Position numbers and translations under genes: made by a program. The notes beneath the pieces are model-generated. The model ran no database searches and had not been told where the DNA came from. It saw only the letters and a list, made by a program, of their open reading frames with translations. Shown one piece after another: positions 2,774 through 41,250 of a stretch of DNA of 47,237 nucleotides. The stretch comes from a virus: positions 1 to 47,237 of the IMG/VR virus record IMGVR_UViG_3300009154_000086. One strand, written 5' to 3'. Every line of letters starts with the position of its first letter. The stretch's first letter is position 1.

Positions 2774-2779
2774 TTATTG

Positions 2780-3223
2780 ATGTGGCAGAATATTGTTAGT
2801 ATAGGACAGACGGTTAGTGCTTTTCTCACAAACGGAAAAGCACCACCCAATACACCCACTTATTTGGAAAGACAGATGGAGGACACAAATCATCTATCTT
2901 CTAAAAAATTCTTTATTATTTTTAGCTCTTTGTTCATGCTAGCGTTTGTGTTCTATACGAGCGTTGGATTACTTTGGGTTATTCCTAGGGCTCCAGAAAT
3001 TGTTTCAGCTTTCGTCACAATTTTCACAAAGATGATAGAAATCTTTGGTATTATTATTTCCGTTTACCTCGGTGCTCAGGGGTTAGTTGATATAAGATAT
3101 AATAGTGCATCTAACGCAAGCACAGAAGGAATTTTAGAACAAAAAGAAGTTGATATTAATGAAACAATATTAACTAATAATACAAAAGAAAATGATTATC
3201 ACATTTCGGAGGTTGAAATATGA
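2780..3223 (+). CDS. Two-TM holin candidate
   Basis: 147 aa from the ATG at 2780; a TTG one codon upstream is less likely. A soluble N-terminal 40 residues precede two hydrophobic helices (about 43-67, FFIIFSSLFMLAFVFYTSVG, and 76-101, AFVTIFTKMIEIFGIIISVY), then a charged, acidic C-terminal tail from about 105. Two membrane helices directly upstream of, and overlapping (ATGA), the endolysin gene is the classic holin position. No specific holin family is recognised, and T4 holin T has only one TM segment, so this would be a different class. It could instead be another membrane protein of the lysis cassette. Confidence 0.55.
   Translation: MWQNIVSIGQTVSAFLTNGKAPPNTPTYLERQMEDTNHLSSKKFFIIFSSLFMLAFVFYTSVGLLWVIPRAPEIVSAFVTIFTKMIEIFGIIISVYLGAQGLVDIRYNSASNASTEGILEQKEVDINETILTNNTKENDYHISEVEI
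3208..3212 (+). promoter_or_regulatory. Strong Shine-Dalgarno GGAGG for the endolysin gene
   Basis: GGAGG lies 7 nt before the ATG at 3220, inside the end of the holin candidate. It is one of very few clear Shine-Dalgarno sites in the window and fits a coupled internal gene that has no promoter box of its own. Confidence 0.6.
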
Positions 3224-15664: not shown

Positions 15665-16264
15665 ATGAAAAAGCGTTTTTTAGCTATATATGAAAGTTGG
15701 TTAACAGCAAGCAACCATAGCGGTTTTCTTGTAGGTAACATTGTCAAGTTCAAAGATAATGCATTAAAGCATGATTTCCTTAAAGCACTATCTGATGAAG
15801 CAGTTAATGCGATTAAAGCGCTTGTAGCAGGTAAGGGTACTCTTAGAATCACAAATGTAGTTAACAAGTATCCAGCAGGAATGGCAGCTAGTAACCCTGA
15901 CGACTTTGGTCCTGATTTTAGTATTGAGGTTAGTGAAGATATAGGTGGTGGTCGTATTATGAATAGTGCTGTTGTACATCCCGGTATGATTCAAAAGATC
16001 GATACAACGCCAAATCTCGAGCCTGTTCCTGATAAAAACAAATATAAGAACAAAGTTACTATTAAACCTGAAGTTGTAAAGGATGAAGCTGAAGAGGTTC
16101 CTTTTTATTCACCAGCGCGTACGCGCACATCTGATCTTGGTAATGGTAAGCTTAGTAGCGGTGACCGTTCTTTAAAGAATGTCAATATAAAGATTCCTGC
16201 TACACCTAACGTCACTTGTAAAGATCCTGCTTCTTATACTGCGGACTATTTACCTAAGGCTTAA
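15665..16264 (+). CDS. Hypothetical late protein with possible head-targeting N-terminus (199 aa)
   Basis: 199 aa. The first residues MKKRFLAIYESWLTAS resemble T4 capsid-targeting peptides, with I-Y-E/S as a possible prohead-protease-type site. Residues 20-110 look folded (NIVKFKDNALKHDFLKALSD, GTLRITNVVNKYPAG). From 120 onward it is Pro/Lys/Glu-rich and likely disordered. No known domain is recognised. It is a single plus-strand gene inserted between minus-strand wedge and clamp-loader genes with its own late-type box. It overlaps the clamp-loader 3' end by 11 nt. A virion or internal head protein is a reasonable guess. Confidence 0.6.
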   Translation: MKKRFLAIYESWLTASNHSGFLVGNIVKFKDNALKHDFLKALSDEAVNAIKALVAGKGTLRITNVVNKYPAGMAASNPDDFGPDFSIEVSEDIGGGRIMNSAVVHPGMIQKIDTTPNLEPVPDKNKYKNKVTIKPEVVKDEAEEVPFYSPARTRTSDLGNGKLSSGDRSLKNVNIKIPATPNVTCKDPASYTADYLPKA

Positions 16265-17186
16265 TATCTGAAAGCTGAATTAGACAAGCGTAGCAATTAA
16301 GCTCCTGGTCAACGCAAAACGCTGAACGGTAGAGATATTCAGATACCGTAAGAAGATAATATCTCTTGAGATCAGGATTTGTTTCTGCTTCATCGATATA
16401 ATTAAAGAGATTGCGTAAAAGTAAAACATAATCTGAATTAAATGTATGTTCGCTTTCAATTAACGCTTTTCGTAACGTCTCAATATTCCTCTTCTTTACC
16501 TCATTAAAGATAAGCTCTAAGACTTTATTATTCTTTGTATCAGCTAAAATAAGTTTACCGGTCGATGAAAACTTTTGTAGTTCGTTAATACATTTACGCA
16601 AGTCAGGGTAAGTACCTTTGACGAATTCAACAAACCTAACCTTCTGACTATCTTCTAAAGCAATACCCTCCTTCTTAAGGATAGTAGCGCATCTCTTTAC
16701 AGCGATATCTAAAGGTGGTGTTAAATCAAAACTCTGACAGCGACTCTGCAGAGCTGGAATAATTCTATACCGATAGTTCGCTGTAAGAATAAATCTTGTA
16801 ATGCCGGCGAACTATTCCATAGTGTTTCTCAATGCGCGTTGTGCATCAATAGAAAGACCATCTGTCTCATCGAGAATAATAACCTTAATCTTACCATCGA
16901 TACTCATTGTCTGAGCAAAACTCATTACCTTTGTACGGATAGTGTCGATACCGTTTTCATCAGAAGCATTAATATAAAGGTACTGACAACCAAGGATATC
17001 ATTAACGATAATCTTAGCGCTCGATGTTTTACCAATACCCGGTCCTCCAGTAAAGAGTAAATTAGGAATCTCCTCTTTTACTTTATAAGAGTTTAATACG
17101 TCGCGTATTTCCGGTGTACAGATAAAATCTTCAAGAGTATGCGGACGGTATTTTTCGCACCAAATATTTGAAAAATCGTAACTCAT
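16254..17186 (-). pseudogene. 44: Sliding-clamp loader ATPase subunit (gp44/RFC-like) interrupted by an in-frame TAG
   Basis: The reading frame encodes 310 residues (T4 gp44 has 319) but codon 125 is TAG (16812-16814). Before it: YRPHTLEDF, Walker A GGPGIGKT (47-54), Walker B VIILDETDG (102-110), then AQRALRNTME. After it, in the same frame: FAGITRFILTANYRYRII and the SRC motif (148-150) with arginine finger, and the C-terminal collar domain. Relatives normally read ME(E/A)(F/Y) here, so TAG stands where a Glu is expected; GAG to TAG is one change. No other lesion is seen. Start chosen as ATG 17184-17186, 1 nt after the dUTPase stop. Listed as broken, but readthrough, a suppressor tRNA or a sequence error are all possible. 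Confidence 0.85.
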
Positions 17187-40625: not shown

Positions 40626-40925
40626 TTATTTATCGCTGATACTACGTTTATTCTTTTCATACTGAAGTTTGCAGGTATTGTAAACATATGTAGGTAGCTT
40701 TTCAACTGTTTCAACAATATTGTTTTTTAATCCTATATTAAACTTCTCCGTAGGTACCTGTCTTACCGTCATGTTCGGTAGTGTGAGAAAATTATAATTA
40801 GTATCTACTGTATCCATGTACACTAACAACTCACCTAAATAAGCACCTGTTGTAACTGCGTATATGAACCGTGCTTTAGGGTGTTGTGTGTTAAAAAAAG
40901 ACTTAACTTTATTCAGAGCCTTCAT
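40626..40925 (-). CDS. Hypothetical protein (99 aa)
   Basis: 99 aa, ATG 40923-40925. Starts with a basic helix (KALNKVKSFFNTQ), then KARFIYAVTTGAYLGELLVYMD, a beta region, and a charged C-terminal helix. It is close to its neighbours on both sides in the clamp-to-primase run. Not recognised. Confidence 0.5.
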   Translation of the reverse strand: MKALNKVKSFFNTQHPKARFIYAVTTGAYLGELLVYMDTVDTNYNFLTLPNMTVRQVPTEKFNIGLKNNIVETVEKLPTYVYNTCKLQYEKNKRSISDK

Positions 40926-41010
40926 CGTCTAAATGTGTGTGGAAGAATTTGTTAATTAGCGTGACCAGAGAATCAGCTTCTTGCTGATTGTGCGCAGATA
41001 TGCAGTGCAC
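40909..41010 (-). CDS. Possible small gene with unclear start (33 aa from GTG, open to 41046)
   Basis: An open minus-strand frame ends TAA at 40909-40911 and reads protein-like text (GYTVDGDPVHCISAHNQQEA, then DSLVTLINKFFHTHLDDEG). No ATG, GTG or TTG occurs before the GTG at 41008-41010, yet the coding-like text begins earlier, right after the in-frame TAA of the 67 aa gene. Either the gene starts at an unusual codon, at this GTG, or belongs to a longer protein. It overlaps the start of the 99 aa gene by 17 nt. Confidence 0.35.
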   Translation of the reverse strand: MHCISAHNQQEADSLVTLINKFFHTHLDDEGSE

Positions 41011-41046
41011 GGGATCGCCATCTACCGTATATCCTAGTATAACAAA

Positions 41047-41250
41047 TTATGAGAGGAACTCTTCAACAACTGATGTAAGTGTCTTTAAATCTTTCTTGAT
41101 ACCGTTTGTATTTTCGAGCTTTTCTTCAAGAGAAGAAATCATAGCTTTACGGATAACTTCTTTTGTTTCCGCATCTATACCCGTCTCAGCATCTTTCGAG
41201 CGCTTTGATTTATTAGGCTTCTTGTTCTGCTGATCCTTGTCCTTCATCAT
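41047..41250 (-). CDS. Small charged protein (67 aa)
   Basis: 67 aa. A very basic N-terminal third (KDKDQQNKKPNKSKRSKD) is followed by an acidic helical part (KEVIRKAMISSLEEKLENTNGIKKDLKTLTSVVEEFLS). The start overlaps the 129 aa gene by 38 nt. The frame continues open after its TAA. Not recognised; it could be a small nucleic-acid- or polymerase-binding protein, but there is no direct evidence. Confidence 0.5.
   Translation of the reverse strand: MMKDKDQQNKKPNKSKRSKDAETGIDAETKEVIRKAMISSLEEKLENTNGIKKDLKTLTSVVEEFLS

Follow-up and report, generated by a model that had tools for sequence, protein, structure and literature searches.

A lone amber codon in the clamp-loader gene of a metagenome-assembled phage record is almost certainly a sequence error or a dead variant

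Introduction

An in-frame TAG interrupts the gene for a gp44-like sliding-clamp-loader ATPase in the uncultivated virus record IMGVR_UViG_3300009154_000086. Is this codon decoded as an amino acid, by recoding, suppression, or readthrough, or does it simply mark a wrong base or a dead gene? The record is an assembly of 47,237 bases, classified as linear in IMG/VR and probably a fragment of a phage genome. We analyzed it over its entire length, and we refer to this whole stretch as the window. A preliminary description of the sequence had left four options for the amber codon: a sequencing error, a non-viable or suppressor-dependent variant, a suppressor tRNA carried by the phage, and programmed readthrough yielding truncated and full-length products. 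We evaluated these options by comparing the window with related records, by looking into the use of TAG and the presence of tRNA genes, and by counting broken genes in the same family of phages.

Results

The gp44-like gene runs on the minus strand from an ATG at 17186 to a terminator TAG at 16256-16254, and its frame is clean on either side of codon 125, with no further internal stop (Table 1). When codon 125 was counted as one residue, the protein matched PHROG 168 ("clamp loader of DNA polymerase," 4.3e-76), the Pfam entries AAA and Gp44_lid, and the solved structures of the RFC small subunit and of T4 gp44. The motifs that characterize gp44 and RFC small subunits, GGPGIGKT (Walker A), ILDET (Walker B, DExx), and SRC, indeed occur in one frame. 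These gene and protein matches bear out the initial observation of a lone in-frame TAG with the frame continuing on both sides. The preliminary description had also suggested looking for a second, intact gp44 gene, whose presence would have spoken against an interrupted essential function. There is none: a single copy is present in each of the 11 records searched, which are the window and ten related records of up to 157 kb, and the two gp44 pieces reported for G010 correspond to one frameshifted copy.

Table 1. Positions of the features discussed in the text (window coordinates)
Feature	Position	Strand	Description
gp44-like sliding-clamp-loader ATPase gene	16254..17186	minus	310 codons and a terminal TAG; broken at codon 125
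In-frame TAG, codon 125 of the gp44-like gene	16814-16812	minus	GAG in the conspecific record (G001/L002), GAG/GAA in relatives
Second difference from G001 in the gp44-like gene	16710	minus	Silent change in Leu codon 159, at 104 bases from the amber
9-bp inverted repeat	16773-16781 / 16807-16815	minus	Amber base lengthens the 7-bp repeat of the conspecific record
Conserved 113-codon gene	40912..41250	minus	In-frame TAA at codon 68 (41049-41047)

We then looked into codon 125 in the relatives, namely 27 loci encoding related clamp loaders that were recovered by an IMG/VR search. All 27 have GAG or GAA, as expected from the Glu that had been assigned to this position beforehand. The closest of them is record G001 (IMGVR_UViG_3300027741_000262), and the proteins of the 26 other loci are 65 to 96% identical to that of the window. 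The frame is broken at codon 125 in IMGVR_UViG_3300009154_000086 only, and a scan of IMG/VR with the degenerate surrounding sequence and TAG at codon 125 found no record. The clamp loaders of isolated phages are just 37 to 39% identical to that of the window, and the isolated phages searched gave no near DNA match, so there is no close cultured reference; the cellular genomes searched contained no relative of the gene and so offered no clue to the host.

Over its full 24,010 bp, G001 matches positions 1570 to 25581 of the window with 99.96% identity, the differences being seven SNPs and a 2-bp indel located 10 bases from the end of G001. Its clamp loader has Glu (GAG) at codon 125 and is otherwise identical to that of the window. 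Judged by this identity, G001 is the same phage species as the window, and nearly the same strain, without the amber stop. The seven substitutions comprise the amber base, four synonymous changes, one of them within the gp44-like gene (Table 1), and two missense changes. A random coding substitution creates a stop codon in about 4.6% of cases, and the probability of at least one nonsense change among seven unselected differences is ∼0.28. Three of the seven differences (3148, 3152, and 3166) lie within 19 bases toward the end of the gene at 2777-3223, where they fall in both arms' sequence of an imperfect 10-bp inverted repeat.

The amber base itself extends an inverted repeat (Table 1), which random substitutions do in only 0.6 to 0.8% of cases. 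Repeat extension is a mark of quasi-palindrome template switching, a process known also in T4 (PMC3820800), and it might point to a templated mutation over random noise. Considered as a general source of differences, template switching had no general effect: among 102 SNPs in ten other pairs of near-identical records, none was associated with a repeat arm of at least 9 bp, where ∼1% would be expected at random. Since the association at the amber was noticed post hoc and has no counterpart among these 102 SNPs, we give little weight to a templated origin.

Alignment of the window with the open reading frames of two related records brought up a second interrupted gene, which lies beyond the reach of G001. 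In this conserved 113-codon gene, homology runs in frame past a TAA to the proper end, and codon 68 is Ser, within an open frame, in every relative found. Both stops, the TAG and the TAA, are one base from the sense codons of the relatives. Other apparent stops in these comparisons were, by eye, in antisense or out-of-frame spurious ORFs or upstream of starts. The breakage of two genes by different stop codons in one record disfavors any mechanism specific to TAG.

How often conserved genes are broken in such records was estimated from 12 window proteins searched in the 27 relative loci, giving 228 gene-by-record pairs, a number that slightly overstates the independent cases because some loci are near-duplicates. 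The pairs contained three internal stops (one TAG and two TAA) and one frameshift, and two further stops lay at natural C-terminal ends. The single in-frame stops fall in conserved structural genes at L007:7575 (TAG, at a Trp position), L003:5638 (TAA), and L008:1452 (TAA), where relatives have sense codons. At L028:1020-1945 (IMGVR_UViG_3300004687_000437), gp44 is frameshifted, one base being deleted in comparison with the intact and otherwise identical L013. A rate of 4/228 predicts ∼0.9 broken genes per 53, with a probability of ∼0.24 for at least two; at this rate, such a record is expected to have one or another of its conserved genes interrupted, and the two broken genes observed in the window are unremarkable.

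We next considered whether TAG could have another meaning in this phage. In the 53 plausible genes of the window (∼15,000 codons), TAG is the terminator of 10, including the gp44-like gene, which confirms the earlier remark that it ends other genes here, and it is found in frame internally in one; in the gene list as it stands, codon 125 is the sole internal stop. ARAGORN and Rfam detected no tRNA gene in the 47-kb window, itself probably a fragment, and tRNAs were present in two of eight related records, where all anticodons are those for Asn, Gln, and Met. Sparing use of TAG as an amino acid codon through a phage suppressor tRNA, in the manner of code 15 (TAG to Gln), would account for a gp44-like frame that continues through one TAG. 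As the record is probably a fragment, the tRNA could sit in another part of the phage, and some recoded phages have no suppressor tRNA of their own (PMC10607447). However, recoded phages carry TAG in dozens of genes, as in phAss-1, which has TAG within 41 ORFs together with three CUA tRNAs (PMC10607447). Like code-15 phages (phAss-1 and crAss-like), the window has a core gene with a TAG in frame, whereas their dozens of TAG-containing genes, their CUA tRNAs, present in most, their placement of TAG at Gln positions, and their rare use of TAG as a terminator contrast with one TAG, no tRNA found, a position that is Glu, not Gln, in 27/27 relatives, and TAG as an ordinary terminator. The second break in the record, moreover, is a TAA. 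We therefore regard recoding as extremely improbable, and the suppressor tRNA proposed in the preliminary description found no backing, either among the tRNAs of the window and related records or in a relative with TAG at this codon.

Suppression could also be provided by the host. Suppressor hosts are the classical means of growing T4 amber mutants, gene 44 mutants among them, and a lineage whose usual host has an amber suppressor tRNA could likewise keep a real amber mutation and be viable only there. In favor of this, the change affects a single base in a gene whose remainder is intact and encodes the same protein as the conspecific record. Yet an amber-only suppressor would be unable to read the TAA in the second gene, and a suppressor of both TAG and TAA would need to spare the TAA terminators of 36 of the 53 window genes. 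G001 has Glu at codon 125, and none of the relatives has TAG there. A suppressor host is in our view very unlikely.

Finally, we asked whether the stop could be read through in a programmed manner. E. coli dnaX yields two products, and by analogy truncated and full-length clamp-loader subunits could be made here. RNA from the TAG downstream does fold better than its shuffles (z = -2.9), but the sense-codon sequence of the conspecific record folds nearly as strongly (z = -2.4), and four other relatives gave no such fold (z from -0.8 to +0.6). Synonymous sites are no more conserved around codon 125 than elsewhere (mean codon entropy of 1.10 versus 1.05), the TAG itself is missing from G001 and all relatives, and a 124-residue product would be missing the lid and the collar as well as half of the ATPase module. 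With the stop absent in relatives, the fold not conserved, and no synonymous constraint around codon 125, nothing points to a selected readthrough signal at this codon. Programmed readthrough, as raised in the preliminary description, is scarcely credible.

Discussion

The observation of the amber codon is correct and ordinary. Codon 125 is very probably a private single-base nonsense change in one metagenome-assembled record, without a coding or regulatory role, and it is almost certainly a sequencing or assembly error or a dead variant and not a new reading of the code. The TAG is indeed private to one record, and the closest relative has a sense codon. The intact conspecific record, the TAA break, and the background rate support two of the options listed at the outset, a sequencing error and a non-viable variant; a suppressor tRNA carried by the phage and programmed readthrough are not supported.

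The amber is probably an erroneous base in the consensus of the assembly, in line with the second nonsense codon of the record and the general background of breaks, which point toward noise. With lesser probability, the phage population may really include this gp44 allele, which would be inactive and unable to replicate alone. The second private difference, at 16710 and so 104 bases from the amber, points toward a real haplotype and fits a poorly covered stretch equally well. We find it very unlikely that a real phage population has nonsense alleles of gp44 and of the second gene frequent enough to dominate an assembly, kept by co-infection with intact siblings, with the gp44 allele generated by template switching at the inverted repeat.

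If the genome truly has the TAG, its clamp-loader product would be a 124-residue fragment that keeps Walker A and B and loses sensor 1, SRC, the lid, and the collar. By analogy with T4, this fragment would be inactive, and the genome would be replication-dead unless an intact phage co-infecting the cell complemented it or the host provided suppression. Amber mutants of T4 gene 44 have a nearly absolute replication defect (PMC2988020).

In two respects, the same gene and a nonsense codon inside an otherwise intact frame, the window resembles those T4 mutants; they are, however, selected laboratory mutants on suppressor hosts, whereas the window is one uncultivated record known from assembled sequence alone. 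A closer likeness is with the consensus errors and inactive alleles of metagenome virus contigs, which are isolated single-base breaks absent from near-identical records (L028 versus L013). The amber differs from these just by the essential gene that it strikes and by the inverted repeat that it extends.

In such records of this phage family, ∼2% of conserved gene copies carry a single-base break. Before a lone in-frame amber codon in a core gene of a metagenomic phage contig is put down to recoding, suppression, or readthrough, it should be compared with near-identical records.
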